DNA from: Terasakiella sp. SH-1
GTDB taxonomy: Bacteria > Pseudomonadota > Alphaproteobacteria > Rhodospirillales > Terasakiellaceae
Reading direction: 5' to 3'
Assembly: GCF_004564135.1 (NCBI RefSeq)
Contig: NZ_CP038255.1
Span: 2,529,501 to 2,593,500, forward strand
DNA: 64,000 nucleotides
Part shown: positions 25,017 through 38,969 of the stretch, piece by piece
How the letters are laid out: each line of letters begins with the position of its first letter
Position numbering within the stretch: position 1 is the stretch's first letter
Notes under the pieces: generated by a model
Databases searched by the model: none
What the model was told of the DNA's origin: nothing
What the model saw: the letters and a program-made list of their open reading frames with translations, nothing else
Translations under genes and position numbers: made by a program

Positions 25017-25031
25017 GTTAATTTCCTTCAT

Positions 25032-25088: not shown

Positions 25089-25907
25089 TTACGCTTCAAG
25101 GCAGCGCAAAGAGACCACACCTGATGGATCAATCAGGGAAGAGCCCTGGCTCATCATGTTATTGACGAAATGGGCCGCACGATCCCCGTGCCAGGATACA
25201 TCGGACTTGATATCATGGCCGATGGCATGACCGATGGCTGTTTTATGATACCAATAGCAGTAGCGCACATCGCCGGTTTTGGTCAGGCTGGAATGGGGCA
25301 TCCACAGCGTCCCCAACCATTTTTTGGCCTGAGTACCTTTCCAGGGCAGGTCTTCTTCACCGACATAATCAGCCTTGGTAAACTCATCAATTTGCAGCAA
25401 GTCAGACCATTGCTTCCAACCGACAATCGCATAGCGCTCGCCATCGTCAGGCACATCTGATTCACCCATCATTTCAAAAGCTTCCAGCACCTTTGCCTTG
25501 GTCAGACCATCGGTGCCATCACCGGCAAAATTGGTGGATTTATCCAGCTCGTTAATCACCAACTCGTCCGTTTTACGACCCAGCGCATAAGCCCCGGCCT
25601 TGGAGACCACCTGCATTTCGTTGATGTTGGTTTTGATTTCATCCAGCTTATCAATCCAATCGCCTGCGTAGTAATCATAGAGCTTACATTCCACCGGCTC
25701 GTGATCAATATTCATGATCGGCACTTTACCATGACGCCCCTTGGTTGAGGCTGTCCCTTTACCAATTTTCTGGAAGGTGGTTGTTGCCCCTTCCACATTA
25801 TCTTTGGTACGTACCGTATTGCGCAGTTTTGAGCCCATTTGCTGATACTGCAGGTGTACTTCGGCCACATAATGGCCAATAAACGACTGTTCGATTGATG
25901 TAGACAT
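25089..25907 (-). CDS. Major capsid protein
   Basis: 272 residues. MSTSIEQSFIGHYVAEVHLQYQQMGSKLRNTVRTKDNVEGATTTFQKIGKGTA is the N-terminus of the T7-like capsid family of Alphaproteobacteria; the ending VNNMMSQGSSLIDPSGVVSLRCLEA is typical. It forms the icosahedral shell with an HK97-type fold. It is separated from its natural neighbour, the scaffold gene, by 8.6 kb of other genes, but has its own LexA-box promoter at 26145-26173. Confidence 0.85.
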   Translation of the reverse strand: MSTSIEQSFIGHYVAEVHLQYQQMGSKLRNTVRTKDNVEGATTTFQKIGKGTASTKGRHGKVPIMNIDHEPVECKLYDYYAGDWIDKLDEIKTNINEMQVVSKAGAYALGRKTDELVINELDKSTNFAGDGTDGLTKAKVLEAFEMMGESDVPDDGERYAIVGWKQWSDLLQIDEFTKADYVGEEDLPWKGTQAKKWLGTLWMPHSSLTKTGDVRYCYWYHKTAIGHAIGHDIKSDVSWHGDRAAHFVNNMMSQGSSLIDPSGVVSLRCLEA

Positions 25908-26101: not shown

Positions 26102-26200
26102 GGAAAGATCACTCCGGTCACACTTCTGCTGTTGACTGAGACTGAATATAGAACATAACGCGAACATGCGCAAGCCCTAAATTCATTTTTTTCAAAAAAA
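26102..26200 (-). repeat. Promoter repeat copy A
   Basis: About 97 bases, ~90% identical to 32877-32973, in the same orientation. It contains a complete leftward promoter, a LexA box in the spacer and about 40 bases of initially transcribed sequence. The latter also occurs at 37391-37420. Confidence 0.9.
26145..26173 (-). promoter_or_regulatory. LexA-box promoter for the capsid operon
   Basis: Minus strand: TTGCGC (26173-26168), a 17-nt spacer, TATATT (26150-26145). The spacer contains GTTCGCGTTATGTTC (26165-26151), an exact GTTC-N7-GTTC match, so LexA would sit between -35 and -10. Confidence 0.75.
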
Positions 26201-26243
26201 GTTGCGTTATTCTTTAATCTGCAAAAATAACGAGGAAAAAGGC

Positions 26244-27710
26244 TTAAAATCCAAAGCCTAGATTATGGGCAAATTGGTTGACGATCTCGTCTTCATCCTT
26301 GGCTTTGACCACCTGCATAAAGGCATCGGTCGTTTTCGGCCCGACAATTCCATCATCTTTCAAATTTGCCCCCAAGTCATTAAGCGTATCTTGCAAGGCC
26401 AAACCTTCGGGTTGGAAACCCGGCTTGGGTGATTTCTTTTGCGGCAAAAGTGGCTCAAAAGTCACACCCAACTCACCAGCAAGGTTGTGCATACCGCCTT
26501 TTTTCGCCTTTTTCACCGTTTCTTTAAACTGCCCCAATGCCAGCGCTTCTGAGACTTTGCCCGTCCCTTTGTCGACCAGAGCCTTTTTCAGCCCCAACGA
26601 AGTCTTTGGCCCTAAAACCCCATCTTCTTTCAGTTTGGGCTGTTTCAGAGCTTTGGGCAGCGGCGATTGGTTGTCTTTATTGGATAGGAAGTTCAAACCG
26701 CTTTGGATGCCTTTGACAATTTCATCCTCCCCTTTGACTGGCATAATTCCAATCAAATCATTACCCGGCCCCGGCAGGGGCAAGGTGGGCGGCGCGTCTT
26801 TTCCCGGTGCAGGAACAGGAACCGGCTGAATCCCCGGCTGACCGTCTTGTGGTGGTTTTTGAGGAAAGGATAGCCCCCCCTCCCCTTTGACCGGCATAAT
26901 TCCAATCAAATCATTATCCGGCCCCGGCAGAGGCAAGCGAGGCGGCGCGCCTTTTCCCGGTGCAGGGACAGGGACCGGATGAATCCCCGGCTGACCATCT
27001 TGCGGTGGTTTTTGAGGAAAGGGCAACACCACACCACCTTCAATCGGGCTGATGCGCACTTCATCACCAGTTTCCGGCAAACGGCCCAACACATCTTCAA
27101 TCGCCTCTTCCAACGGTTGACCATCCACCGTGCGCACAGGAAGCGGGCTCTCCGGTGCCCGACGAACCGGGCTGGGCTGAACCATCTTGCCCGTTTCATC
27201 AAAACGTATCGGCTCATTGCCATAATAATGCTCAAACCATTCACGTTCACGCAGCATCATATCCTGCCTCTCCTGAACCGGTGCCTTCTCCCGCGCCTTC
27301 ATCGCATCTTTAAGCTCCGCTTCGGTCCAGTCTTTTGGGGGTTTGAGGGAGAGGTCAGCTTGACTATTGCTTAACACTTCACGAGATAATTCAGAATAGT
27401 GTTTACTTTCTTCCAGACTGGCAACACCACTCTCATTACCCTGTTGTTTCTTTCCATATCCCTGACTCCGACACGCCTGTAATTCCCAAACCCACTCGCT
27501 AATCTTAGGCTCGCCAACAACCACAATTCTCCGCCCTTTATCAAATTTATCTAAAGCATCTTGATACTTAGGTATTTGTATCTCGACCCTCTTTAATTCA
27601 CTTCTCCAAGTGCCTTTTCGCTTCTTTTCTAAAGCTTGATCAAGACGACATTTTGCATTTTTTAAATCTGCTAAATACCCTTCAACATCACTTCTCGTTA
27701 CGCCTGACAT
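26244..27710 (-). CDS. Proline-rich repeat protein with two peptidoglycan-binding-like motifs
   Basis: 488 residues, no signal peptide. Residues 1-165 are charged and helical. Residues 231-332 hold a 51-residue unit in tandem (FPQKPPQDGQPGI ... PGPDNDLIGIMPVKGE), rich in Pro and Gly. The C-terminal part has two segments with DGVLGPKT (363-370) and DGIVGPKT (453-460), the core motif of PG_binding_1 domains. The layout suggests a virion-carried or cargo protein that meets the cell wall. No enzymatic domain is seen and no family is recognised. RBS AAGGAGAG. It is transcribed leftwards toward repeat A. Confidence 0.6.
   Translation of the reverse strand: MSGVTRSDVEGYLADLKNAKCRLDQALEKKRKGTWRSELKRVEIQIPKYQDALDKFDKGRRIVVVGEPKISEWVWELQACRSQGYGKKQQGNESGVASLEESKHYSELSREVLSNSQADLSLKPPKDWTEAELKDAMKAREKAPVQERQDMMLREREWFEHYYGNEPIRFDETGKMVQPSPVRRAPESPLPVRTVDGQPLEEAIEDVLGRLPETGDEVRISPIEGGVVLPFPQKPPQDGQPGIHPVPVPAPGKGAPPRLPLPGPDNDLIGIMPVKGEGGLSFPQKPPQDGQPGIQPVPVPAPGKDAPPTLPLPGPGNDLIGIMPVKGEDEIVKGIQSGLNFLSNKDNQSPLPKALKQPKLKEDGVLGPKTSLGLKKALVDKGTGKVSEALALGQFKETVKKAKKGGMHNLAGELGVTFEPLLPQKKSPKPGFQPEGLALQDTLNDLGANLKDDGIVGPKTTDAFMQVVKAKDEDEIVNQFAHNLGFGF
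26715..27020 (-). repeat. Tandem 153-bp coding repeat
   Basis: Two in-frame units of 153 bases (27020-26868 and 26867-26715) encode the 51-residue proline-rich repeats. A partial degenerate unit precedes them. Confidence 0.85.
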
Positions 27711-27770
27711 TTATCTCTCCTTAAAAGTTGCCAAAACCATCCATATTGCATTTAAATACATGCGTTAAAA

Positions 27771-28547
27771 ATGGACAAAAAAATGAAATATTTATATTTT
27801 TTAATATCATATGCCCTTATTGCCTCGCTAAACGCCGCACATGCCTGTCCGGATGAAGACAATACCGCAACCCCTTTGGTCTATGGAATTCATCTCCCTA
27901 CAGCGAACTATGAAAATGGCATAAACAGGGCAGAAACCTTTTTTCAGAAAAGTGTTGCTCTTAACGAACCTTATGGCGAACAGGTCTATAACCTTTTCAA
28001 AACATATAAAGACGAGCACGGGAACGAAGCATGGTCCCGAGACACGAAATTAAAGTTCCTGAAAGAAGCATCTCACCTAGGTGTCGGCTATGCCAGTTTT
28101 GCCTATGCCTCTAAAATCTGGCGAGAGAACCAAACTCAAAGTGCCCGTTATATCAAAAAGGCCGTAGAGCAGAATTATCTCCCGGCTTTTGAAGTCTATG
28201 CAGATTACCTGAGTGACCTGGAATACGAAGATATATCATCTTTAAACTACCCCCAAAACCGGTGGGTTATATACGACAGCTACAAGGTTTCAATAAGCCA
28301 CGGCTGTGCCTTACCCAAATACATGCTTGCCCAATACATCTATCATTTCATCCCTGAAAAAGAGCATGAAGTCATTCCACTGCTTCTTGATTATATTGAT
28401 GACAAAGACGCTCTCCCCTCACACCGTGAAGACGCAATCATTGACCTCTGCGTTCTTGGTGTAGGCAAAGCCAATGCCCTGCCGATTGAAGAACGTTGGT
28501 GTAGCAAATCCTTTACTTTGTTCAGGAAAAACATCCATGAGGATTAA
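27771..28547 (+). CDS. Secreted helical-repeat protein, type 1 copy 1
   Basis: 258 residues (254 if ATG 27783 is used; neither start has a strong RBS). A signal peptide ends at NAAHA, followed by CPDEDN. The rest is helical with a TPR/Sel1-like periodicity (HLGVGYASFAYASKIWRENQTQSARYIKKAVEQNYLPAFEVYADYL). The C-terminus has DLCVLGVGKA and a final RWC, conserved in the other type 1 genes at 30920 and, in its N-terminal part, at 32266. The cysteines suggest disulfides and a periplasmic location. Function unknown. First gene of the array. Confidence 0.7.
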   Translation: MDKKMKYLYFLISYALIASLNAAHACPDEDNTATPLVYGIHLPTANYENGINRAETFFQKSVALNEPYGEQVYNLFKTYKDEHGNEAWSRDTKLKFLKEASHLGVGYASFAYASKIWRENQTQSARYIKKAVEQNYLPAFEVYADYLSDLEYEDISSLNYPQNRWVIYDSYKVSISHGCALPKYMLAQYIYHFIPEKEHEVIPLLLDYIDDKDALPSHREDAIIDLCVLGVGKANALPIEERWCSKSFTLFRKNIHED

Positions 28548-29301
28548 ACATCTATTATGTATCATCCTGTTGGCGGGGTGTTCTCTTCACAGCCAACAAC
28601 CTGTGCCTTACCAAGGCATACCGGAAACATATTGGTCCGACTTTGCCGATAAATCGCGCATTCAAGCTGCTTTGGAACAGCAAACTTCCGAAGAGACCCA
28701 TGTTCTGCTGGCCCGCATATATTTAAAAGACAACTATGACAATCGGGCAAAAATACTGCCGCTCATCACGCCTTACGTCACCCACAATGCCGATGCCGCC
28801 ATGATGTATGGTCTGGTCTATTATTCCAATAATGATGAAGAGGCTTTTTACGGTTTTCTTCACGCCGCACGACAGGGGCATCCCACAGGAATGCTTTATC
28901 TGGCATCACATTATCATCATATTCTCAACAGAAATAGAACCGCTGTTTATTGGGCCTTTAAAGCCGTTGAAAAAGGCTGTGGGATTGCACGCAACTATCA
29001 TTGGATTTTAGATATGGAATCTGAAGACAAACAGGAGCTTAACGACACGCTTTATCCATACATGGCGGAGTTCGATAATATGTTCTCTCAGATTGTGATG
29101 ATGGGTAAAGCCAACTCAACCCAACAACCTCATGAACATGCCTATTGGAAACGACGCATCCAAGTCAGTCAGGAAAAGGAAAGACAGGCCGCATCAGGAT
29201 ATTTTTACGATCTACATAAAGAGTGCCGCGAGCGTTTTTCCCAAGACTTATACGATAGATTTTCTTCTTATGGTCAAAATGATCTGAGAGTAAAACGATG
29301 A
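28537..29301 (+). CDS. Sel1-like lipoprotein, type 2 copy 1
   Basis: 254 residues from ATG 28537 (AGGAAAA upstream); the frame opens 63 bases earlier inside the preceding gene. MRIKHLLCIILLAGCS is a lipoprotein signal with the lipidated Cys at position 15. Sel1-like units follow (EEAFYGFLHAARQGHPTGMLYLASHYHHI ... AVYWAFKAVEKGCGIARNYHW). It overlaps the previous gene by 11 bases and the next by 4. An almost identical copy lies at 30090. Confidence 0.8.
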   Translation: MRIKHLLCIILLAGCSLHSQQPVPYQGIPETYWSDFADKSRIQAALEQQTSEETHVLLARIYLKDNYDNRAKILPLITPYVTHNADAAMMYGLVYYSNNDEEAFYGFLHAARQGHPTGMLYLASHYHHILNRNRTAVYWAFKAVEKGCGIARNYHWILDMESEDKQELNDTLYPYMAEFDNMFSQIVMMGKANSTQQPHEHAYWKRRIQVSQEKERQAASGYFYDLHKECRERFSQDLYDRFSSYGQNDLRVKR

Positions 29302-30035
29302 AAAAACTCTCTTTCATTGTTCTAGTTTTCATATCTGCTTGCACCTCTGAACCTGAAACAAATCTACTCAGTGAAAGCGCATACCTTCAATCAGCTGAAC
29401 GGCATATATATGAAATTAGAAATATTCCTCATGCGACAACCCAATTACACAAGGCATTAAGCATCCATAACTCTGCCGATGCAGCAGCCTTATTAGCACA
29501 GCTTAAAATTGCACAGACCCAACTTACAGACAGGGACGAATCATGGAGGGAAGAAGTCACCACTCTTGTATCCCCCTTCAAAAAAACAAATGCACAGGCT
29601 GCTTATCTTTATGCGCTAGTCCAGCAAAAACAACCAAACCAAACCCAAGTCTTAAACAATTTTCTAAACGCTGCTGCCTTAAAAAGTGCTGCTGCAATGC
29701 TCTATGTCGGCAGTATTTATCATCATGATTTTGATGACCCAAAAACAGCGTATGACTTTACGCTGAGAGCACTGAAACACGGCTGCCCCGCAGCCTTGGG
29801 TTTTCTCAAGGCTTATCAAAACCGCTTTATTTCAAAAGAAGAACTTATAGAGCTAACCTTATTTGCCGCTATAGAAGGCAGTGTTAGTGCACGATGGGAC
29901 ATGTCTCTATATCTTGATGCCATCAATCCCGTCGAAGCTTTATATTGGGAAAGACAAGCCGATAAAGCCCACAAAGAGAGAATAAGACGCAGTAAGCTTC
30001 CCCTATATGATTTAAATGCCGTCTGCATGAATTAA
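29298..30035 (+). CDS. Lipoprotein, type 3
   Basis: 245 residues. MKKLSFIVLVFISAC-T is a lipoprotein signal (Cys15). Helical repeats related to type 2 (FLNAAALKSAAAMLYVGSIYHHDFDDPKTAYDFTLRALKHGCPAALGFL). The ending YDLNAVC resembles the YDLHKEC region of type 2, so types 2 and 3 share an origin. ATGA overlap with the type 2 gene. A 12-codon remnant of a second copy lies at 30851. Confidence 0.75.
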   Translation: MKKLSFIVLVFISACTSEPETNLLSESAYLQSAERHIYEIRNIPHATTQLHKALSIHNSADAAALLAQLKIAQTQLTDRDESWREEVTTLVSPFKKTNAQAAYLYALVQQKQPNQTQVLNNFLNAAALKSAAAMLYVGSIYHHDFDDPKTAYDFTLRALKHGCPAALGFLKAYQNRFISKEELIELTLFAAIEGSVSARWDMSLYLDAINPVEALYWERQADKAHKERIRRSKLPLYDLNAVCMN

Positions 30036-30089
30036 TCCCCCTCCCCCATCCATAAGAGAGAGAGCATTAGCTTCTAAGGAAAAATATCC

Positions 30090-30854
30090 ATGAGGATTAA
30101 ACATCTATTATGTGTCATCCTGCTGGCGGGGTGTTCTGTTCACAGCCCACAACCTGTGCCTTACCAAGGCATACCTGAAACATATTGGTCCGACTTTGCC
30201 GATAAGTCGCGCATTCAAGCTGCTTTGGAACAGCAAACTTCCGAAGAGGCCCATGTTCTGCTGGCCCGTATGTATCTAAAAGACGACTATGACAATCGGG
30301 CAAAAATACTGCCGCTTATCACGCCTTACGTCACCCACAATGCCGATGCCGCCATGATGTATGGTTTGGTCTATTATTCCAATAATGACGAAGAGGCTTT
30401 TTACGGTTTTCTTCACGCCGCACGCCAGGGACATCCCACAGGAATGCTTTATCTGGCATCCCTCTATCATCATATTCTCAACACAAATCAAACCGCTGTT
30501 TATTGGGCCTTTAAAGCCGTTGAAAAAGGCTGTGGACAGGCGCGAGAGTATCATTGGTTTTTGGATATGGAATCTGCAGACAAACAGGGGGTTAACGACA
30601 CGCTTTATCCATATCTGGCAGAGTTCGATAATATGTTCTCTCAAATTGTGATGATGGGTGAAGCCAACTCGACCCAACAAGCTCATGAACATGCCTATTG
30701 GAAACGGCGCATCCAAGTCAGTCAGGAAAAGGAAAGACAGGCCGCATCAGGATATTTTTACGATCTACATAAAGAGTGCCGCGAGCGTTTTTCCCAAGAC
30801 TTATACGATAGATATTCCTCTTATGGTCAAAATGACCTGAGAGTAGAGCAATGA
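30090..30854 (+). CDS. Sel1-like lipoprotein, type 2 copy 2
   Basis: 254 residues, exactly the length of copy 1, with about 20 amino-acid differences spread over the gene and near-identical DNA including the bases before the ATG. Lipobox LLAGCS. RBS AAGGAAAA. It must derive from a recent tandem duplication. Changes such as Thr to Ala, His to Leu and Arg-Asn to Gln-Ala around residue 150 leave the Sel1 motifs intact. Confidence 0.8.
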   Translation: MRIKHLLCVILLAGCSVHSPQPVPYQGIPETYWSDFADKSRIQAALEQQTSEEAHVLLARMYLKDDYDNRAKILPLITPYVTHNADAAMMYGLVYYSNNDEEAFYGFLHAARQGHPTGMLYLASLYHHILNTNQTAVYWAFKAVEKGCGQAREYHWFLDMESADKQGVNDTLYPYLAEFDNMFSQIVMMGEANSTQQAHEHAYWKRRIQVSQEKERQAASGYFYDLHKECRERFSQDLYDRYSSYGQNDLRVEQ

Positions 30855-30889
30855 AAAAATTCTCTTTCCTCCTTCAATGCCATTCCTGA
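30851..30889 (+). pseudogene. Remnant of a second type 3 lipoprotein gene
   Basis: ATGAAAAAATTCTCTTTC overlaps the stop of type 2 copy 2 by four bases, exactly as the type 3 gene does after copy 1. The frame ends after 12 codons (MKKFSFLLQCHS). The rest of the duplicated gene has been deleted. Confidence 0.6.
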
Positions 30890-30919
30890 AAATAATTTTG
30901 AATTAGTGCATATCTCATA

Positions 30920-31666
30920 ATGCGATACATACCCTTCATCACCCTGTTGTTTATAAACATGTCAGTATCAGCTTGCCCTGAACCTGATGTTACTTCCCCT
31001 CTAATCCAGGCTATCGAAAGGGCTGGAAGTGGACATGTTCATGGCTCATTAGACAAAGCCCGTGTACAGATTAACAAGGCGCTTAAAGCTAAAGAAAAAT
31101 ATGCAAACATTGTTGCACAAACTCTCCAGAGTTTTGAAAAAACATATGGAGAAACACTATGGCCATCAAAAGCCAGTACAGCTTTCTTAATACAACTTTC
31201 AGATTCAGGGGTTGGCTTTGCCTCTTATACCTTAACCTCACGTTTCAGCAGCACGAAAGAAGGCAATAAAATTCTTCATTATTTAGGTAAAGCAGCTGAG
31301 CAAAACTATCCCCCGGCCTTTTTCGACTATGCATCCGCACGATTTGCAACAACACTCTTCGACACTTCCCCTCTCCAGTTCCATGCCCCCAAACATAAAT
31401 GGCTGATTTATAATTATTTCCAAAAAGCAATCGCATTGAATTGCACGGAAGCCAAATATGAACTCGCGCACTACATCCACCTCTACCTTCCTGAAAAGAA
31501 ACACCAAATCCCGAACCTTCTCCTCGGTTTTATATCCGCACCCGATACTGCCCCTTCCCATAGAGAACAAGCGATTCGCGATCTTTGCGTTTTAGGCATA
31601 GGAAAAGCCTATCAATCCCCCTTACCACACCGATGGTGTCATAGCGCCATACCATTTGGATTTTAG
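30920..31666 (+). CDS. Secreted helical-repeat protein, type 1 copy 2
   Basis: 248 residues. Signal peptide MRYIPFITLLFINMSVSA followed by CPEPDV. The order of elements is as in copy 1: DSGVGFASYTLTSRFSST, LGKAAEQNYPPAFFDYASARF, HLYLPEKKHQIPNLLLGFI, SHREQAIRDLCVLGIGKA and RWC. Sequence identity to copy 1 is moderate, so this pair diverged earlier than the type 2 pair. No strong RBS is visible before the ATG. Confidence 0.7.
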   Translation: MRYIPFITLLFINMSVSACPEPDVTSPLIQAIERAGSGHVHGSLDKARVQINKALKAKEKYANIVAQTLQSFEKTYGETLWPSKASTAFLIQLSDSGVGFASYTLTSRFSSTKEGNKILHYLGKAAEQNYPPAFFDYASARFATTLFDTSPLQFHAPKHKWLIYNYFQKAIALNCTEAKYELAHYIHLYLPEKKHQIPNLLLGFISAPDTAPSHREQAIRDLCVLGIGKAYQSPLPHRWCHSAIPFGF

Positions 31667-31739
31667 AGTTTCCTTTTCTCACAAAAACATCCCACCCCCA
31701 TCCATAAGGGAGATAACATCTGATCAAAGGAAAATGGCT

Positions 31740-32216
31740 ATGGGGATAAAACATCTATTATGTATCATCCTGCTGACGGGTTGTTCTGTTCACAGTCAAC
31801 AAACACCTGAAAAGACTTGGTATAAAATTGCTCTGGAACTCCATTGCAGCCAACCTCCCTGCGATCTACAAAAAATCAGAAAATGATATGGAAAAAGTGT
31901 GACGCGACAAAATGATGCCATGTCTCAATTTAAATATGCTGTTATCCTTCAACATACCACCTCTTCACCAGAGGCAAGAAAAGCCGCTGAGCAACTGGAA
32001 AAAACAGCTCTCTATGAGATTTTATTCCGCTGTGGAGGAGATTACCGCCTTCAAGCCCTCAGAGCTCAAAGAATTGCAGTTACCTATAGCTCCAACCTTT
32101 TCTTTCCAAGAGATATGAAGAAAGCCGCACACTGGCGTGGAGTTGCACAATCTTTTGAAGAAAGATTTTTATACAGATGCCCTGCCCCTACCTTAAGAAA
32201 ATGCTGGCGACCTTAA
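31740..32216 (+). pseudogene. Type 2 lipoprotein copy 3, interrupted by an in-frame TGA
   Basis: The start MGIKHLLCIILLTGCSVHSQQ is the type 2 signal peptide and lipobox. The frame stops at TGA 31884-31886 after 48 codons and continues open in the same frame from 31887 to 32216 (YGKSVTRQNDAMSQFKYAVIL...). One base change (for example TGG to TGA) explains this. The downstream part is Sel1-like (DMKKAAHWRGVAQSFEE) but unlike copies 1 and 2 in detail and shorter. Probably non-functional, or a 48-residue lipopeptide is made. Confidence 0.65.
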
Positions 32217-32265
32217 TCAAGAAAAACTCCAAACATTGCAACAACCAACAATTACAAAAAACAGA

Positions 32266-32913
32266 ATGAGAATTGTCTTTTTATTCATAATTTTCTTTGC
32301 TTCTCCAGCTCTATCTTGTCCTAAACCTGGCGGAGATCAGAAAACTTTCAACCTGACACACGCAATCAATAACCTTGCTTTTGCACATATAGAAAATGGT
32401 ATTCAAGATATCGGAACTTATCTCAACAAAGCCGATAAATTAGATGAACCCGGTGCAAAACACGCATCAGGCTTATTTAAAAACTACACATGGAAGTATG
32501 GCTCTCAAAAATGGCCTCAAACTGTTGCCCTGCGTTTCTTAATTGAGCTTTCTATAAAAGGAAGTGGCTACGCTAGCTATAGATTAGCCAACCTTTTCGG
32601 CGGGTTAAAAGATACGACAACCCAAAGATACTTTCTAGAACGTGCTGTCGCACAGCAATACCCCCCAGCCTACCTTGAGTTCGCTCTATTTTTGTCCAAC
32701 CCTGAAAATAATAATTGGGGGACAGACAGGTTCTTAAACGACATTCCTATGATCAAAAAATACTTTCGTAAGGCTATCAACCTTAAATGCCGTTATGCCC
32801 AAAAAGCTCTCACTCGTTTCCAAAAAGACCTCCAAGATAAAGAACTTTTTTCAGCGTATACTGGACGCAGAGAGAGGGAAAACCACTCTGGTCACACTTC
32901 TCCTGTTGACTGA
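32266..32913 (+). CDS. Secreted helical-repeat protein, type 1 copy 3, C-terminally truncated
   Basis: 215 residues from ATG 32266. Signal peptide MRIVFLFIIFFASPALS followed by CPKPGG. The type 1 pattern is present up to INLKCRYAQKALTRFQKDL, but the conserved SHREQAI...DLCVLGIGKA...RWC ending is missing. The last residues (ENHSGHTSPVD) and the stop codon come from repeat copy B. The gene was therefore cut at the repeat boundary. Probably a broken or altered product. Confidence 0.65.
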   Translation: MRIVFLFIIFFASPALSCPKPGGDQKTFNLTHAINNLAFAHIENGIQDIGTYLNKADKLDEPGAKHASGLFKNYTWKYGSQKWPQTVALRFLIELSIKGSGYASYRLANLFGGLKDTTTQRYFLERAVAQQYPPAYLEFALFLSNPENNNWGTDRFLNDIPMIKKYFRKAINLKCRYAQKALTRFQKDLQDKELFSAYTGRRERENHSGHTSPVD

Positions 32914-32973
32914 GACTGAATATAGAACATAACACGAACACATGCAAGCCCTAAATTCATTTTTTTCAAAAAA
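32877..32973 (-). repeat. Promoter repeat copy B
   Basis: A ~90% match to 26102-26200 in direct orientation. It forms the 3' end of the truncated type 1 gene and contains a leftward promoter that faces into the antisense strand of the lipoprotein array. Confidence 0.9.
32919..32947 (-). promoter_or_regulatory. LexA-box promoter, orphan copy
   Basis: Minus strand: TTGCAT (32947-32942), a 17-nt spacer, TATATT (32924-32919). The spacer contains GTTCGTGTTATGTTC (32939-32925), an exact GTTC-N7-GTTC. The first gene in its direction is 26244-27710, 5 kb away. Confidence 0.7.
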
Positions 32974-33200
32974 TATCACACCCCTGTAGGAACAAAGGAC
33001 AAGGAGAAGCTCCCTCCTAAATTCAGTTTTCCAGAACAGCACAACCTGTGAAAAGCTATCGCCCCCTGAAAAACTTCTACATATGTCGAAACTCCGTAAA
33101 AAAACGTATAAATTCAAGCATCTTCTCTTGTGAAACGTGATAAGAGCGTGCAAAGTAGTGTATCTCTTTATCTGAAAAAAAGCCCCTGTAGGAATTGAAA

Positions 33201-33557
33201 ATGAAAAACATCTTTGTAATCGACGATGACGAAATCATTCGCGATATCCTGCAACTTGGGCTGCAAAAAGCGGGTTACAACGTCGTCACGGCTGAAAATG
33301 GAATTAATTCAGCGGAGAAATGTAAAACCCATGAAATTGATCTGGTGATCAGTGATATTTTGATGGAAGACAAAGATGGGCTTGGCACTTTGATTGAACT
33401 ACGAGATCAATTGCCCACTATTCCGGTTCTGATCATGTCTTCCAGCACTGAATTTCTTGAAATTGCCAATCAGATTGGTGCCCGCGCCGTTTTGGAAAAG
33501 CCTATTATTATCCACAAGCTGGTCGATCTGATTGACGATATTTTATCTGATGACTAA
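33201..33557 (+). CDS. CheY-like single-domain response regulator
   Basis: 118 residues from ATG 33201 (AGGA upstream; the TTG at 33195 is unlikely). Complete receiver: acidic pocket Asp8/Asp9 (FVIDDDE), phospho-acceptor Asp52 (LVISDILMED), a Ser in IMSSSTE and the conserved Lys in LEKPI. No output domain. No kinase is nearby. It lies in the non-virion segment between scaffold and repeat B, so it is probably a passenger gene. Confidence 0.88.
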   Translation: MKNIFVIDDDEIIRDILQLGLQKAGYNVVTAENGINSAEKCKTHEIDLVISDILMEDKDGLGTLIELRDQLPTIPVLIMSSSTEFLEIANQIGARAVLEKPIIIHKLVDLIDDILSDD

Positions 33558-33578
33558 AGCCTTTATGAGTTAACGCTC

Positions 33579-34220
33579 TCATCCCTCTTTCAGGAAAACA
33601 GGCGTATCTCCTTCTTGCCATTGCCTGTGTTTTTTCATCACTTGCTTGAAGGTTTCATTTTCGAGAAACTGTTCAAACCAGGCAACGAGCGCAGAATAAG
33701 GGCTCTGTCTGAACCAGTGGATATCGACAAAGGCAAACTGACGGATAAAGGGAAAAATTCCGTAATCCGCCATATTTACCTGTTGTCCACCCAAAAAAGG
33801 CGCAGCCTCCAAACGGCTATTCAAATCCGCTAAAATAACTTCTGCTTTTGCTCGCTGTTCAAGGGGATCGACATCCTCATAACGGGCATAATATTTATAG
33901 CCGTCCAGATAATCCTTAAACACCCCATCGTTGCGATCAAGCAGATTGTCCACCACGATTTGATCGCCTTGCAACCAGCCTTCGGGGTCATGTTGCCCCA
34001 AAGCCCAGCGCATAATATCACGACTTTCATCAATCACACGGCCATCAGCTAATTGCAACACAGGCACAGTGCCCTTTGGGGAGATATCCAGCATGGCTTT
34101 GGGCTTCTCCCGCAAGACCACTTCGCGCAATTCAATGGACAGGCCACTGGCATATAAGGCCATACGTGCACGCATGGCATAAGGGCAACGGCGAAAACTA
34201 TATAAAATTGGATCAGTCAT
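33579..34220 (-). CDS. Glutathione S-transferase-like protein
   Basis: 213 residues from ATG 34220, chosen because GAGG lies just before it (the longer frame starts at 34235). N-terminal thioredoxin-like domain: ILYSFRRCPYAMRARMALYASG with a single cysteine, SPKGTVPVLQL and DESRDIMRWAL, then an all-helical C-terminal domain. The CPYAMR start resembles GSTs with a cysteine active site. It follows a 59-residue gene by 19 bases and converges with the receiver gene. Confidence 0.85.
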   Translation of the reverse strand: MTDPILYSFRRCPYAMRARMALYASGLSIELREVVLREKPKAMLDISPKGTVPVLQLADGRVIDESRDIMRWALGQHDPEGWLQGDQIVVDNLLDRNDGVFKDYLDGYKYYARYEDVDPLEQRAKAEVILADLNSRLEAAPFLGGQQVNMADYGIFPFIRQFAFVDIHWFRQSPYSALVAWFEQFLENETFKQVMKKHRQWQEGDTPVFLKEG

Positions 34221-34239
34221 ATCCTCACTATACACAGGC

Positions 34240-34419
34240 TCAAGCCATGCCGTCAGCTTCTCTTTCCTCTAAATCCACCAGCCCTTCCAGATTGATTGAC
34301 AGTCCATTGAGCAAATAACAGAGAGCTTCCCAGGATAAAGCCTGAGACAAGGCACTGCGATAGCCTTCTGGCAGAGTATGTACACCGCTAAAGACCACTT
34401 CCAATTCACGTCCGTTCAT
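34240..34419 (-). CDS. Small protein of 59 residues upstream of the GST gene
   Basis: It runs from ATG 34419, preceded by GGAGG, to a TGA at 34240. The translation starts MNGRELEVVFSG, continues LPEGYRSALSQALSWEALCY and ends EEREADGMA. It is acidic and helical. No family recognised. The strong ribosome binding site and tight spacing to the GST gene support it as real. Confidence 0.6.
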   Translation of the reverse strand: MNGRELEVVFSGVHTLPEGYRSALSQALSWEALCYLLNGLSINLEGLVDLEEREADGMA

Positions 34420-34447
34420 TGTTCTTCCTCCTTCTTATAATAAAGTG

Positions 34448-34500
34448 TGTCACCCCCGCACAAAAGGCGGGGGGCCCGACAACGGGCTTTCCATATCAAC
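34448..34500 (-). terminator. GC-rich hairpins after the scaffold gene
   Basis: Two stems on the minus strand, GCCCG/CGGGC and CCCCGC/GCGGGG, lie between the scaffold stop and the 59-residue gene. The T-run is poor, so a termination role is uncertain. Confidence 0.35.
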
Positions 34501-34517
34501 AGAAATGACACCTCAAA

Positions 34518-35192
34518 TTAATCGGGATACAAACGGCGAAAACCGTTACGTACCTGTTCGACAATCATCGGATCACGATCACGCCAATAGCGGGGATCAC
34601 GCATCAATTTACGTACGTCATCTTCACTACGTAGACCATGAGCATCGTGAACACGGGCCATGGATGGCTCCCCTTCTCCTTTATTCATCATGTCATACAA
34701 GGTCATCACCCCGTCATAAGAACAGCCCATGGCCTCCAACGCATCAGGGCCGAATTTTTGTGCGCCCCAGGTGCGCAACTGACGTGCGGTTTCCAGCCAG
34801 CGCTCTTCCCCACCAAATTTTTCGCAAAGGCGGTCAACCTGTTGCTGAGCATGGAGTTCTGCCATGATTTCTACCACAAGGGGTTCCAACGCCTCATGGG
34901 CCAGATCATAAACCAGCTGCACCTGTTCATTACTGAATCCCGCACGATGCAACCGTTCATTCACCATTGCATCATTTTGAAACAGGTCACTCTTACATTC
35001 GACGCAATATTGTGAATGATGTTCGGGGACCTGACGATGCAAACCTGCCCCGACTTTACGTTCCATATCACGATAAGAGCGCGACATCGCTTCCAGACGG
35101 GCCTGCCCTTTTTGCTCATCCCAAAATTTCTTTGGCAGGTAAGACGGGCAATTACAATCCGCCCCATTTTTGTCTTCAATTACACTTGTCAT
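34518..35192 (-). CDS. Capsid assembly (scaffold-type) protein
   Basis: 224 residues. LEAMSRSYRDMERKVG near the N-terminus and the ending RDPRYWRDRDPMIVEQVRNGFRRLYPD are typical of capsid assembly proteins between portal and capsid genes in T7-like prophages. It is helical and charged. A Cys-rich N-terminus (CNCPSYLPKKFW, CVECK) is an unusual addition. Its capsid partner gene is displaced by the cassette. Confidence 0.75.
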   Translation of the reverse strand: MTSVIEDKNGADCNCPSYLPKKFWDEQKGQARLEAMSRSYRDMERKVGAGLHRQVPEHHSQYCVECKSDLFQNDAMVNERLHRAGFSNEQVQLVYDLAHEALEPLVVEIMAELHAQQQVDRLCEKFGGEERWLETARQLRTWGAQKFGPDALEAMGCSYDGVMTLYDMMNKGEGEPSMARVHDAHGLRSEDDVRKLMRDPRYWRDRDPMIVEQVRNGFRRLYPD

Positions 35193-35219
35193 ATTTATTC
35201 ACCTTTTGTTCCTATTTTA

Positions 35220-35489
35220 TTACCCTTCACGGCCCTGTCGGACCAACCCCATCATGTAAGACACCAAATAACGCTGGCCTTCCAGATGACGTAAAATCCC
35301 GTTATGGGCATTGGCCCCCAAGGGACGTGCTAAAGTCATTTCCGCCAAATGGGACAAAACCGCCTCCCCTTCAGGGCCGGAAAAACACCGGGCAAACTGT
35401 GCGGGTAAATCTTCGGGGACTTCATTACTGCCCCCTTCATTCAGCGCCTTATCAAACCAGGCCCATCCGAGATCACTGAGTTTGGGCAT
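35220..35489 (-). CDS. Bbp19-like phage protein
   Basis: 89 residues. FARCFSGPEGEAVLSHLAEMTLARPL followed by EGQRYLVSYMMGLVRQG matches the small Bbp19-like domain found next to podovirus portal genes. Function unknown. It overlaps the portal gene end by 17 bases and precedes the scaffold gene, the standard order. Confidence 0.65.
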   Translation of the reverse strand: MPKLSDLGWAWFDKALNEGGSNEVPEDLPAQFARCFSGPEGEAVLSHLAEMTLARPLGANAHNGILRHLEGQRYLVSYMMGLVRQGREG

Positions 35490-37071
35490 TAGACATCTCC
35501 TTCATCATTTCTTGTAACTGTTCAGGGTTTTGCATCATTTCCTGCGCCATCTCCCCAATCTGTCCCATATCCATTCCCCCAGCAGCCCCCATGGCCGGGT
35601 CTTGCTGCATCTCTTCCTCTGATTTAAGGATTTCACCAGGAACGCCATAGGCTTTGGCCAGAAAACGCGCTGTTTTGATCGGGTCAATCAGCCCCATAGC
35701 CTGTGGTCCGATACTGCCAAGAGATTGCATCCAGGCCAGAATATCTTGGGCCTCTTTGCGGGTCTGCTGACGCGCCAGCGGGGATTTATATTGTAAGTCA
35801 ATATGACGCCCATCAATGCGCAATCCATTGACCTCACCACGACGATTAAGGATTGAGAGTGCCCGCACCACAAGAGGTGTCAGAAGTTCCGCCTGCAAAC
35901 GGCCATAGGTCGCCCCTAAAATTCGTGCCATTTCAGCAGAACGTTCCAACACTTCGGTGGCCGTCATCTGCTTGCCATCGGTTGCCCCAAGCTTATCAGC
36001 CAACAAGGCATGACGGATGCGCTTGCGCAATTCTTCCAACACGACCTGTGACAAGTCAAAACTGCCCGGACTTTGCAGCGGTGTCAGCCCTGCTGAGCCG
36101 ACTGCTTTAGGAATGATGGTACCGGGGACCAGTTTGATGGTCGCCGGGTTAAGCACCCCATCATCATCGGCCTGCCAAATCCCGGTAACAGCAATGGAAG
36201 CATTTTTCAAGGCCAGTTCCACAACCTTATTAGCCGTTTTAATATCGGGCAGCGCCTTCATCACCGGAGAGCGGCCATAGCTTTCCCCCGGTGCCTTAAG
36301 CCAGCGAAAGCTGATGAAAGGGGATTGGTTAAACATTCCCCGTCGCAAGACAACAGGTTCCCCCAAGCGGGCATACCCATGTTCCAGCACAGCGATATAA
36401 TCAAAACGCGGACCATTTTCGACCACAGCTTCAACGACACTATATTTATCGTCCTTGTTTTTTTCTGCCCGTGCAATCAAATCAGCAGGCAGCTGACTTT
36501 CTGCAAAACGGGTTCGCAAATGGTCAAAGGTCATTTCGCTGCGCCTGAACGTATCTGTCAGCATGCCGCCTAAACCTTCTTCCAGCATCACTTGTGATAA
36601 GGGAACCGCACAGAAGCGGAAGGCCGATGCCTCCCCGGCAGGGGCTTCTTCAAACATCAAACAGGCACTGCCTACCGTAACCAGATCAAGAAAGCACTGG
36701 TGCATTTCAATTGAAAAATTCGAACGCTCAAAATGGGTCTGTAGCACCTGAGATGCTTTGTCCAGCTCCTGATTAAGCTGTTGCAATTGCTCATCAGGAA
36801 CTTCCGGCCCAGCCGTTAAGCCAAACCATCTTGCCCACGGCGGGGTCAGGTGGGCCAGCATACTGGCGGCCAATTGGTCCACAGCATCAGGGGCGGTTCC
36901 GTCAAACAACTTGTCGGCCCGTTTTTCCCCTGGTGTGCCCCCACTGAAAAAACCGCTGCGATGAGGCAAGGCATAATCATAGCATTCCTGCCAGTGCCCT
37001 TCCCAAATGCCACGTTTTTCCTTGGCCTTTTGAAAGCGTTCCAGCACCTCTTTCGGTGTGAGTTCGCTCAT
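35473..37071 (-). CDS. Head-tail connector (portal) protein
   Basis: 532 residues, the usual length for T7-like portals. Early motifs: RADKLFDGTAPDAVDQLAASMLAHLTPPWARWFGL; later KQMTATEVLERSAEMARILGATYGRLQAELLTPLV, a family signature. It forms the dodecameric ring through which DNA enters the head. A Met/Gln-rich tail (MGQIGEMAQEMMQNPEQLQEMM) is present. Nothing in the reading frame is broken. Confidence 0.92.
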   Translation of the reverse strand: MSELTPKEVLERFQKAKEKRGIWEGHWQECYDYALPHRSGFFSGGTPGEKRADKLFDGTAPDAVDQLAASMLAHLTPPWARWFGLTAGPEVPDEQLQQLNQELDKASQVLQTHFERSNFSIEMHQCFLDLVTVGSACLMFEEAPAGEASAFRFCAVPLSQVMLEEGLGGMLTDTFRRSEMTFDHLRTRFAESQLPADLIARAEKNKDDKYSVVEAVVENGPRFDYIAVLEHGYARLGEPVVLRRGMFNQSPFISFRWLKAPGESYGRSPVMKALPDIKTANKVVELALKNASIAVTGIWQADDDGVLNPATIKLVPGTIIPKAVGSAGLTPLQSPGSFDLSQVVLEELRKRIRHALLADKLGATDGKQMTATEVLERSAEMARILGATYGRLQAELLTPLVVRALSILNRRGEVNGLRIDGRHIDLQYKSPLARQQTRKEAQDILAWMQSLGSIGPQAMGLIDPIKTARFLAKAYGVPGEILKSEEEMQQDPAMGAAGGMDMGQIGEMAQEMMQNPEQLQEMMKEMSNAQTQ

Positions 37072-37072
37072 A

Positions 37073-37282
37073 TCAATCTCCTAATAACTGTTTGCCTGTC
37101 TGTTGACTGCCTTCGTTTTTCTCCAAGCCTCGCCAAGAGGTTTGAATCGTACCTTGGCGACCACGGCGACGGCGTTCCATATTTTTCAGGCGCTCTTCAC
37201 GTTCAGCTTCTGCCGGATCTGGCGGAGCTGGCGGCTCTGGTGGTGGTGCAGGCGGTTCCGGGCTGGAAAACATTCCTCCCAT
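37073..37282 (-). CDS. Small proline-rich phage protein upstream of the portal gene
   Basis: 69 residues. A proline-rich N-terminus (SPEPPAPPPEPPAPPDP), an Arg-rich helix, then RRRRGRQGTIQTSWRGL...LLGD. The GRxGTIxTSxxGL...LLG ending recurs in short proteins directly before podovirus portal genes. It ends one base before the portal start. Role unknown. Confidence 0.65.
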   Translation of the reverse strand: MGGMFSSPEPPAPPPEPPAPPDPAEAEREERLKNMERRRRGRQGTIQTSWRGLEKNEGSQQTGKQLLGD

Positions 37283-37322
37283 AAGACTTCTCCTTATTAA
37301 ATTGTTGAAATATTGCGGGACT

Positions 37323-37347
37323 ATAAAAAGGCAGCTTCAAGCTGCTT
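37323..37347 (-). terminator. Second hairpin before the portal operon
   Basis: GCAGC/GCTGC with a 5-nt loop and a following T-run on the minus strand, placed just after the stronger terminator at 37361. Confidence 0.5.
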
Positions 37348-37360
37348 CCAATTGCCCAAT

Positions 37361-37391
37361 AAAAAAGCCCTTCGGGGGTTCCCGAAAGGCT
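37361..37391 (-). terminator. Terminator inside the leader of the portal operon
   Basis: On the minus strand AGCCTTTCGGG pairs with CCCGAAGGGCT, followed by six T. It lies immediately after the conserved leader sequence (37391-37420), so a transcript from promoter C meets it within about 60 bases. Confidence 0.85.
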
Positions 37392-37428
37392 CCAGTCACA
37401 CTTCTCCTGTTGACTGAGCCTAGATTTA
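37391..37428 (-). repeat. Leader repeat copy C (partial)
   Basis: It shares about 28 bases of transcribed leader with copies A and B (minus strand CTCAGTCAACAGGAGAAG, then TGTGAC), at the same distance from a different -10 element. The LexA box and the upstream half are absent. Confidence 0.8.
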
Positions 37429-37451
37429 GCAGCTACTCACACAAAAGTCAA
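37423..37451 (-). promoter_or_regulatory. Promoter C for the portal operon
   Basis: Minus strand: TTGACT (37451-37446), a 17-nt spacer, TAAATC (37428-37423). There is no GTTC-N7-GTTC here, unlike promoters A and B. The conserved leader starts right after the -10. Confidence 0.6.
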
Positions 37452-37835
37452 TACTTTATTTCCTATATTTTCACTTTTTGTTCTTTTTATATATTGATAC
37501 AACTGCCAAGGTGTCTGAACAAAGCAATCACGGATACCCAACAAACGCTTCACCACTTCCACACAGCTCATGGGTGCCCATGGAAAAGCTTGCGCCCGTT
37601 CCTGAGCGATCTCAACAGATTGAACCCGCATTCCCATTTCGTGATACCATGAGATCAAACCGGTCAACTCATAGCCTTCCAGAACTTTGATCGTCAAATG
37701 ATGGCTCATCGGATCAACCCAAACATGCCCCCGGTCTGTTTCCAGAATAATAAAACAATGGCGAAAGCCAGGACGCAAAAACCTTAACCACCATAATCCG
37801 CTATTGTCGCTATAAACCACTAACGCTTTTGACAT
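37437..37835 (-). CDS. Putative permuted NlpC/P60-like protein
   Basis: 132 residues from ATG 37835, which has GAAAGGGA upstream; the frame opens earlier inside the neighbouring gene. MSKALVVYSDNSGLWWLRFLRPGFRHCFIILE carries a histidine in a hydrophobic strand; PMSCVEVVKRLLGI later carries a cysteine at a helix start. His before Cys in this spacing recalls the circularly permuted NlpC/P60 (YiiX/LRAT-like) fold. If correct, it could be a peptidase or amidase. It overlaps the gene upstream by 16 bases and precedes promoter C. Confidence 0.5.
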   Translation of the reverse strand: MSKALVVYSDNSGLWWLRFLRPGFRHCFIILETDRGHVWVDPMSHHLTIKVLEGYELTGLISWYHEMGMRVQSVEIAQERAQAFPWAPMSCVEVVKRLLGIRDCFVQTPWQLYQYIKRTKSENIGNKVLTFV

Positions 37836-38200
37836 TGTACAATCCCTTTCTTTTGTAGCGCATCGCCCAAACGTTCCAACGCCTCTTTCCATAACGGCAC
37901 ATCACGCTGTTCTTCACGGGCATATTCATCTGGCGGCGTTAATTTCTCCCCATAGGCCCCCAAAACCTGAAGATGGGGGTTTTCAATCAGGCGCTGACGA
38001 TAAATATCCATGACAGCGCGATAGACATCATCTGGGTCACACGGGCGTGGTGTTTCCACCATTCCGGCAATGAAGCGTGCCCCATCCATCCGCATAAGCT
38101 GACAGCGCGAAAACCAAAACCAGGCTTCTTCCCCATCCGCAAAAGGGACTGTTTCCACATCATGGGTGGGGGGCAAAACAATTCTTCTCGTCGTTGACAT
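37820..38200 (-). CDS. Conserved protein, first gene of the leftward cluster
   Basis: 126 residues from ATG 38200 (AGAGGG upstream). EEAWFWFSRCQLMRMDGARFIAGMVETPRPCDPDDVYRAVMDIYRQ is a pattern I associate with a conserved alphaproteobacterial family of unknown function, found near phage-type genes. Helical, no signal. It is the first gene behind the LexA-box promoter at 38232, so it should be the first SOS-induced product; a regulatory or early role is possible but unproven. Confidence 0.55.
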   Translation of the reverse strand: MSTTRRIVLPPTHDVETVPFADGEEAWFWFSRCQLMRMDGARFIAGMVETPRPCDPDDVYRAVMDIYRQRLIENPHLQVLGAYGEKLTPPDEYAREEQRDVPLWKEALERLGDALQKKGIVQCQKR

Positions 38201-38231
38201 ATACAAAACCCTCTGGTGCATTAATTAATCA

Positions 38232-38246
38232 GAACACAACAAGAAC
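38232..38246 (-). promoter_or_regulatory. LexA box at the head of the leftward cluster
   Basis: GTTCTTGTTGTGTTC on the minus strand is an exact GTTC-N7-GTTC. It lies just downstream of the -10 of the candidate promoter at 38250-38277 and 32 bases before the first start codon. Confidence 0.75.
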
Positions 38247-38277: not shown

Positions 38278-38336
38278 CTCAAAGTTTTGAAAAAATTCCT
38301 ATAGCATTATTTTCCTCCATCTATGATAATGCGCCT

Positions 38337-38969
38337 ATGTTAAAACATGCAGACATATGGCGCGCCGTTGACAGGCTGGCACAAGAATATGGTTTATCGG
38401 CTTCCGGCCTTGCCAAAAAAGCGGGTTTGGACCCCACCACATTTAACAAAAGCAAACGCCTGACACGGGAAGGAAAAGCCCGCTGGCCGAGCACAGAAAG
38501 TATTGCCAAGATTTTAGAGGCAACAAATTCCAGCCTGACAGAATTCATGGGCTATATTCACGGAGAAACAGGGCGTGGTGTGATTCGCAATGTGCCCCTG
38601 ATTGGCCTGGCCCAAGCAGGGTCTCAAGGTTTTTTCGATGATGCGGGCTATCCCACAGGCGGTAGCTGGGATGAAATTCCCTTCCCCGATGTTCCCGACT
38701 CCAATGCCTATGCCCTGGAAATTACAGGGGCCAGTATGGAACCGGTTTATCGCGATGGCGACCTTGTGCTTGTCTCCCCCAGCGCCAGTATTCGCCGGGG
38801 GGATCGGGTCATTGTCAAGACTCACGAAGGCGAAGTTATGGCCAAACAGCTACGCCGACGTTCTGCACGTAAAATTGAACTGCAATCCCTGAACCCCGAT
38901 TACGAAGATCGTACTTTTGCCATGGAAGAGATTGTCTGGATTCACCGAATTATCTGGGCCTCCCAATAA
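38337..38969 (+). CDS. Xre-type HTH / S24 peptidase regulator (LexA/CI-like)
   Basis: 210 residues. The N-terminal HTH (LSASGLAKKAGLDPTTFNKSKRLT, about 20-43) is followed by a S24 self-cleavage domain: cleavage pair Ala94-Gly95 (LAQAGSQG), nucleophile Ser133 (GASMEP) and Lys170 (VMAKQL), with the 37-residue Ser-Lys spacing of LexA. Similar regulators are conserved on alphaproteobacterial chromosomes and need not be phage-borne. It is divergent from the cluster across a 136-base gap that also holds a LexA box, so it may control the cluster in response to RecA filaments. Confidence 0.85.
   Translation: MLKHADIWRAVDRLAQEYGLSASGLAKKAGLDPTTFNKSKRLTREGKARWPSTESIAKILEATNSSLTEFMGYIHGETGRGVIRNVPLIGLAQAGSQGFFDDAGYPTGGSWDEIPFPDVPDSNAYALEITGASMEPVYRDGDLVLVSPSASIRRGDRVIVKTHEGEVMAKQLRRRSARKIELQSLNPDYEDRTFAMEEIVWIHRIIWASQ

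Follow-up and report, generated by a model that had tools for sequence, protein, structure and literature searches.

Candidate LexA operators at a predicted T7-like virion gene cluster of Terasakiella sp. SH-1 and other Rhodospirillales

The virion gene cluster and its control region

The window analysed here is a stretch of 64,000 nucleotides (nt) from Terasakiella sp. SH-1 (contig NZ_CP038255.1, positions 2,529,501 to 2,593,500), and it carries a leftward cluster of genes that, from their family matches, is read as a T7-like virion module with portal, scaffold, capsid, tail and terminase. Exact copies of the repeat GTTC-N7-GTTC lie at the head promoter of this cluster and at its major capsid promoter, and comparison with related genomes suggests that control by the host LexA repressor is the best reading for the head promoter and, in most of the genus, for the capsid promoter. 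A sequence-only reading of the same DNA had proposed that three such boxes, at 26151, 32925 and 38232, place the virion genes directly under LexA, and all three are found at these positions on the minus strand. The counts of loci given below refer to a comparison set of 80 related Rhodospirillales loci, kept from 498 and many of them cut by contig ends, in which the cluster parts other than the portal were examined. The control features of the window are the following.

38337..38969, plus strand: XRE/S24 LexA-like repressor, divergent from the cluster, with Ala94-Gly95, Ser133 and Lys170 kept
38288..38299, no strand assigned: operator-like GGAA-N4-TTCA (minus-strand reading), 37 nt upstream of the S24 start, resembling the RogA operator GGAA-N4-TTCC
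38232..38246, minus strand: LexA-type box GTTCTTGTTGTGTTC, exact GTTC-N7-GTTC, at the head promoter of the leftward cluster
37820..38221, minus strand: first cluster gene, 133 amino acids, four predicted helices, directly behind the head box; matched in 70 of the 80 loci
32925..32939, minus strand: LexA-type box GTTCGTGTTATGTTC, duplicate of the capsid promoter box within a 100-nt repeat (91% identity)
26151..26165, minus strand: LexA-type box GTTCGCGTTATGTTC, exact GTTC-N7-GTTC, at the major capsid promoter, filling the spacer between -35 and -10

As judged by eye, the hexamers of the head promoter are TTGACT and TATTTA with a spacer of 16 nt, and the box at 38232-38246 lies immediately downstream of them and therefore over the likely transcription start of open reading frame (ORF) 37820-38221. 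At the capsid promoter, the box at 26151 occupies the 17-nt spacer between TTGCGC (26168-26173) and TATATT (26145-26150), and the 32925 copy occupies the spacer of TTGCAT-17-TATATT in the same manner, as had been described. With hexamers assigned by eye, the boxes are placed where a bound LexA would block the promoter. The sites at 26151 and 32925 are the two copies of a single repeat and therefore not independent, so that they are counted once and the earlier count of three is one too many. Behind the 32925 box no gene was recognised on its own strand, the rightward ORF 32236-32913 ends there, and this copy is read as a duplicated remnant that controls nothing visible. A fourth exact copy lies at 41954-41968 on the minus strand, within an oxidoreductase ORF.

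The remaining genes of the cluster, together with an array lying on the opposite strand, are listed below.

37437..37892, minus strand: second cluster gene, 151 amino acids, with His45, Cys46, Cys110 and Glu112 invariant in 48 sequences
35473..37071, minus strand: portal / head-tail connector (PF12236 2.5e-135; phrog_332)
35220..35489, minus strand: small conserved cluster gene, matched in 74 of the 80 loci, no PHROG match
34518..35192, minus strand: T7-type capsid assembly (scaffold) protein (PF05396 1.7e-19)
27771..32913, plus strand: array of related small genes, flanked on either side by a capsid promoter copy; no Pfam match
26244..27710, minus strand: peptidoglycan-binding-domain protein, endolysin-like (PF09374 7.2e-07; phrog_2649 endolysin 2.6e-05, over a short stretch)
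25089..25907, minus strand: major capsid protein (PF19821 1.2e-83; phrog_3437)
24747..25031, minus strand: conserved phage protein, function unassigned (phrog_18004)
23335..23904, minus strand: tail protein (phrog_394; weaker phrog_9239, tail tubular protein)
21419..23335, minus strand: tail protein (phrog_376)
18937..21386, minus strand: tail and tail-fibre type ORFs (18937-19389 itself without a match)
16596..18095, minus strand: terminase large subunit, last recognised cluster gene (phrog_38 8.7e-81)

When 20 cluster ORFs were scanned against PHROGs, five had no match and four others matched only families of unknown function and had no Pfam name; for the second gene, no fold match was obtained at E 0.001. 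None of the scanned ORFs matched an integrase, polymerase or replication family. They hold virion genes without recognised replication or integration genes, the composition expected of a gene transfer agent (GTA), and an unrecognised replication or integration gene among the unmatched ORFs is possible. The near-complete T7-like virion set would also suit a temperate phage with excision, host-dependent replication and infection still intact, and free podophages with portals about 31-37% identical are consistent with such a phage. This explanation is nevertheless very improbable: besides the missing replication and integration families, host-type genes lie on both flanks (on the right an aminotransferase, LysR, greA, carAB, dnaG and rpoD), the closest 80 of 278 viral contigs are all at most 25.6 kb, and nothing in the phage collection matches the first gene, 37820-38221, at E 0.01. 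Phage portals are distant, the best among the matches listed being 31-37% identical, except for one unannotated 5-kb faecal record at 56%.

In the window, an insertion separates the capsid gene from the scaffold gene. The array at 27771-32913 consists of six related small genes of two interleaved families, with a 300-nt repeat that is 95% identical, and the peptidoglycan-binding gene contains a tandem 153-nt repeat pair (26726-27031, 89%). A further cluster gene, at 33579-34235, resembles a glutathione S-transferase by eye and was matched in three of the 80 loci, all Terasakiella-type.

Candidate LexA boxes and the S24 repressor across the order

Thirty lexA loci of relatives were read (the best 30 of 37 lexA genes above the cut-off, from 40 genomes), and the repeat GTTC-N7-GTTC precedes lexA in 28 of them; in Terasakiella sp. 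SH-1 it also lies upstream of recA. This supports it as the LexA operator form of Rhodospirillales, in line with the form established for Alphaproteobacteria. The two lexA exceptions are L153, where the box has one mismatch, and L169, a truncated locus in which the lexA start is probably misplaced.

The S24 repressor gene, divergent from the cluster, was found in 71 of the 80 loci, and an exact box lies within 190 nt upstream of its start in 36 of these 71, across distant genera. The same half-site at 19 other spacings reaches at most two loci, and among other direct repeats upstream of S24 those overlapping the box score 29 and 14 and the next scores 8. Nearly all of the exact head boxes (34 of 36) lie 77-96 nt from the S24 start, those of L108 and L110 being further away, and their spacer letters vary between genera, so that the half-sites are kept and the remainder drifts. 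A separate count upstream of the 37820-type gene, with permuted half-sites as controls, gave 19 of 70 loci, a lower figure because the start inferred from the alignment cut off nearby boxes.

Beyond the S24 gene, at a distance of 29-66 nt, a further exact box occurs in 15 of 70 loci (at most 1 with permuted half-sites), ten of them titled Magnetospirillum or Paramagnetospirillum (L051, L055, L057-L060, L062, L064, L068-L070, L073, L074, L088 and L097 in all). In L055 and L062, the two loci read, this box precedes a small protein with the motif ERRYDGPIPPADP.

The S24 protein of the window (210 amino acids; PF00717 7.2e-25; helix-turn-helix match to PF20432 below its curated cut-off) belongs to a family in which an Ala-Gly pair, a serine and a lysine are the self-cleavage residues, as in LexA and S24 proteins generally, and these are kept in most of the 71 loci (Ala 69, Gly 67, Ser 66, Lys 66). 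A second motif, TAGGAA-N4-TTC, distinct from the GTTC box and fixed in position, lies nearer to S24. Scored as GGAA-N4-TTCC in 72 sequences (the 71 loci and the window), it is present in 36 when up to one mismatch is allowed and in 57 when up to two are, at an offset of 37 nt upstream of the S24 start, against means per position over the offsets of 0.32 and 1.0, and a second peak stands at offset 1 (12 and 38 of 72). Within the window alone, one-mismatch sites are not above chance (40 against 36.3 expected), so that the evidence lies in the fixed position. This motif looks like a predicted S24 operator, and LexA rather than S24 would therefore be the reader of the GTTC box.

The opposite assignment, in which the GTTC boxes serve the neighbouring S24 repressor as operators and host LexA has no direct part, would account for the distance of 77-96 nt and for the S24 gene being the usual neighbour of the cluster, and S24 repressors are a usual phage switch. 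It appears unlikely all the same, as the GTTC box also stands upstream of lexA and recA, the S24 gene is retained where the box is degenerate or was not found, and a separate motif resembling the form published for the Caulobacter GTA repressor RogA, GGAA-N4-TTCC (PMC9632790), lies at a fixed offset nearer to S24. The earlier suggestion of control by LexA, and not only by a phage repressor, is partly supported, and LexA would not act alone, since the layout also contains a divergent S24 repressor with a probable operator of its own. Among 225 genomes, S24 occurs together with a close portal in 109, the portal alone in 11, S24 alone in 39 and neither in 66.

In the Terasakiella-like genus, an exact box is present at the capsid promoter in four of six genomes (G000, G001, G002, which is L045, and G005; not G003 or G004).

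Several observations weigh against direct control of the cluster by LexA. Four boxes in a 64-kb window are near chance (1.72 expected, standard deviation 1.26; 8 of 100 shuffles reach four), and an exact head box was not found in 35 of the 71 loci; in favour of LexA control, 18 of these 35 have a one-mismatch box 60-110 nt upstream of S24 (11 permuted half-sites: mean 2.1, largest 7), ten of them at one identical place, the one used by other Azospirillum. The cluster boxes have other spacer letters than the lexA boxes (which have TA, next C, G or A, and finally TT), and LexA may therefore bind them with a different affinity. A box upstream of the capsid gene was found in only two of 49 loci of the comparison set (L045 and L119), which equals the largest permuted control (2), and outside the genus capsid-promoter boxes are not above the control. 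Upstream of the portal gene the count is five of 80 (permuted half-sites give at most 1, whereas up to 23 are obtained with GC-rich repeats), the tail genes of the 80 loci have no upstream boxes, and the portal promoter of the window (37423-37451) carries no exact box, only a reversed one-mismatch copy. As for the repressor, exact GGAA-N4-TTCC is rare (2 of 72), and S24 occurs in 25 of the 225 genomes without any portal match, so that it would have some other role too and not act solely as the cluster repressor.

Counting boxes by itself proves nothing, and in the whole genome 83 copies of GTTC-N7-GTTC stand against 186 of a reversed control pattern. The genome scan that had been proposed, carried out with the exact pattern, placed most of the 79 copies outside the window inside ORFs of at least 110 amino acids (67) and 12 outside any such ORF, and these 12 include the boxes of lexA and recA. 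A chance origin of the boxes is possible from the window alone and fails against the comparative data, since it is positional conservation among related loci that raises the boxes above chance. The claim that the boxes control the structural cluster is upheld for the head promoter and for the capsid promoter of the genus, and is not supported for the 32925 remnant and for the portal promoter; direct LexA control is likewise the best reading at those two promoters, with half of the loci lacking an exact head box.

Leaders, putative terminators and dispersed promoters

A leader motif, AGTCAACAGNAGAAGTGTGA, was found without using the box and occurs at seven sites in this genome with at most two mismatches, while a shorter leader pattern is present in each of six genomes of the genus and absent from 15 others. 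The features concerned in the window are as follows.

37396..37415, minus strand: leader element AGTCAACAGGAGAAGTGTGA, downstream of the portal promoter
37361..37392, minus strand: stem and T-run resembling an intrinsic terminator, AGCCTTTCGGG...CCCGAAGGGCTTTTTT, after the leader and before the portal operon
32892..32911, minus strand: leader element in the duplicated remnant
26118..26137, minus strand: leader element behind the capsid promoter

In a set of 27 leader sites, some of them orthologous to each other and hence not independent, the 110 nt upstream hold an exact box at 16, a one-mismatch box at seven (four of these reversed, all at portal promoters) and none at four, one of which, L145, looks like a chance match; from the box density of this genome, the chance of an exact box is about 0.002 per leader site. 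Six leader sites stand directly behind the 37437-type gene and before the portal, and four stand about 200-270 nt upstream of the capsid gene. The distance from the start of the upstream exact box to the leader motif is 52-53 nt at 11 of 12 dispersed sites that have such a box, which there abuts the -35 region; at capsid promoters the distance is 19-30 nt, and the box is in the spacer or close to it.

The dispersed leader promoters at G000:C1:813595, 1851601, 2082860 and 2924818 (L123, L009, L246 and L247) have an exact or one-mismatch box, and the genes downstream of them look like cell-wall-binding, phage-like and small membrane proteins. By eye, and with no family search, one dispersed gene has a peptidoglycan-binding-like N-terminus and an M23-like C-terminus; the others are a shorter relative of this protein and three small membrane proteins. 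Near two of the dispersed loci lie near-identical transposase-like genes, IS3-like by eye (L123 4208-5359 and L247 9349-10499).

Single folds of 26 leader sites, with the likely false site L145 left out, show by eye a stem and T-run after the leader at six of six portal sites, 13 of 15 dispersed sites and none of five capsid-type sites, and a strict terminator scan (stem with at most one mismatch, and a T-run) accepted 10 of the 27. An alignment of 11 leaders gave no meaningful consensus fold (-0.68), and the hairpins of the single folds are therefore not backed by covariation. A known RNA family was also sought for the leader, in seven loci scanned at E at most 1, and only rRNA and tRNA reached gathering scores.

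At the portal promoter, where the hexamers read by eye are TTGACT (37446-37451) and TAAATC (37423-37428), a reversed degenerate box is followed by the leader and then by the terminator-like stem, and this layout suggests antitermination. The order of leader and then terminator resembles that described for promoters under the antiterminators Q, AlpA (PMC7969949) and GafZ (PMC11150451). By its position, the 37820-38221 protein is a candidate regulator or antiterminator; its structure model (predicted local distance difference test, pLDDT, 88.5) gave no PDB or viral fold match at E 0.001, which does not settle its function because the known antiterminators are described as unlike each other (PMC11150451). 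A TAGGAA half-site, resembling half of the S24-type operator, stands just upstream of the -35 hexamer in the window (about 37455-37465) and at the portal or capsid promoters L126, L130, L131 and L140 of the genus. The sequence-only reading mentions neither the fourth box copy nor the second motif, and it has nothing on the leaders with their terminators, on the dispersed sites or on the distribution through the order.

Descent, likely nature and known systems

Of 225 genomes of the order, 146 have a portal match (137 when only the 212 good ones are counted), and the matches reach 56 of 84 genera. Hand sorting gave 120 close matches and 26 that are divergent or short, with a few copies being fragments or carrying a stop. 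The nearest named relatives are T. pusilla (L045) and T. brassicae (L104), and others include Azospirillum, Magnetospirillum, Skermanella and Caenispirillum. Portal and lexA distances correlate at r=0.88 in 13 genomes and at r=0.45 when two divergent genomes are added, with r=0.44 for one genome per genus (P=0.11, n=8) and r=0.40 within the genus (P=0.13, n=6). In a portal tree made without L104, whose match is short, the 18 named Azospirillum and the four Terasakiella-type portals are each monophyletic, and 17 Magnetospirillum-group portals fall within a clade of 25 that also takes Terasakiella sp. PR1; the window and two metagenome-assembled genomes (MAGs) titled Methylocystaceae were counted as Terasakiella-type, and separate labels were given to two MAGs whose titles name Azospirillum and Magnetospirillum. 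Vertical descent within genera is likely on this evidence.

Compared with up to four relatives, the ratio of nonsynonymous to synonymous substitution (dN/dS) takes values of 0.011-0.027 in the capsid gene, 0.050-0.058 in the portal gene and 0.043-0.063 in the gene of one tail protein, similar to the flanking LysR (0.023-0.029) and aminotransferase (0.043-0.104) genes, and it is higher for 37820 (0.075-0.130), 35220 (0.065-0.169) and 37437 (0.099-0.313); the values are rough because dS is near saturation. These ratios bear on the possibility that the boxes are LexA sites of a decaying prophage, in which LexA control is left over and no particle is made. Decay would agree with the portal of L104, which is matched only over residues 184-529 with a longer gap before it and appears broken, with the split of capsid and scaffold by the insertion in the window, with the terminase being found in just 13 of the 80 loci, though many loci end before its expected place, and with the few fragmentary portal copies. 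Decay of the element as a whole seems improbable, however, in view of the low capsid and portal ratios, the portal relatives in two thirds of the genera and the leader common to dispersed sites.

The explanation that we favour, and consider probable on comparative grounds, is a domesticated GTA-like element under host LexA and a cleavable RogA-like repressor, wired to the SOS response. A domesticated T7-like virion module would be kept in the chromosome of many Rhodospirillales. There, host LexA most likely occupies the promoter hexamers or the space between them and so represses the head promoter (38232); in most genomes of the genus it would act likewise on the capsid promoter (26151) and on several dispersed promoters. 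The S24 repressor, RogA-like and with its cleavage residues intact, most likely binds the separate operator at 38288 in the same intergenic region, where it would repress its own gene and the head promoter until it cleaved itself in response to active RecA. The head promoter would in this way be opened doubly by damage, through the loss of both LexA and S24, and the product of 37820-38221, or another factor, would let the polymerase pass the terminators behind the leaders at the portal promoter and the dispersed genes. Particles are probably made upon DNA damage, and we infer that they carry host DNA.

More tentatively, the element may be a separately domesticated, podovirus-type GTA present through much of Rhodospirillales, with two SOS locks, host LexA and a self-cleaving RogA-like repressor, in one 115-bp region. 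Its late regulon would then comprise virion genes and dispersed cell-wall genes that have a common leader with terminators behind it, and an antiterminator not recognised so far would switch them on. Should this hold, phage-like particles would be produced by damaged cells throughout a large order, directly governed by the cells' own repair switch, a proposed link between gene transfer and DNA repair would become testable in cultured Magnetospirillum, Azospirillum and Terasakiella, a T7-like origin would be added to the sources of gene transfer agents, and there would be a new leader and terminator control system to dissect. No open-access title or abstract opening describing the cluster was found, subscription papers being mostly outside the scope of that search. 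Particles of Azospirillum have been reported (Boyer 2008, as cited in PMC3899980 and PMC3245306), and mitomycin C is reported to cause no lysis of A. brasilense CBG497 (PMC3899980), a strain that may or may not carry the cluster.

Among known systems, the Caulobacter GTA is described as controlled by the repressor RogA and by GafY/GafZ, an activator and antiterminator (PMC9632790, PMC11150451). From the published description, RogA is, like the S24 protein, a LexA-like helix-turn-helix and S24 repressor (213 amino acids there, 210 here), and the two systems share several promoters, including those of dispersed accessory genes, and terminators to be passed; the candidate S24 operator resembles that of RogA, mostly with one or two mismatches. 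They differ in that RogA is reported to lack key cleavage residues (PMC9632790, PMC11150451), whereas the S24 protein retains them in 66 to 69 of 71 loci, in that the particle genes here are T7-like (podoviral) and not of the RcGTA type, and in the LexA-type box at the head promoter. Pelagibacter podophages such as EXVC031P and HTVC010P share the portal family, but they are free phages with a portal identity of 31-37%, and no member of the phage collection matches the 37820 protein.

The AlpR-AlpA system of Pseudomonas aeruginosa combines a damage-linked repressor with a small antiterminator whose element lies between -35 and -10 (PMC7969949). It is similar in having such a repressor, a small antiterminator (a candidate one here) and target promoters followed by intrinsic terminators, and it is unlike the present element, in which the conserved leader lies downstream of -10, virion genes are encoded, and a fold search linked the 37820 protein to no known antiterminator. 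The closest parallel for the box itself is the GTA of Dinoroseobacter shibae, another alphaproteobacterium, for which a LexA site at the GTA cluster has been predicted in silico (PMC6473078); that case concerns an RcGTA-type cluster in one species, whereas here the box is conserved across genera at a podoviral cluster.

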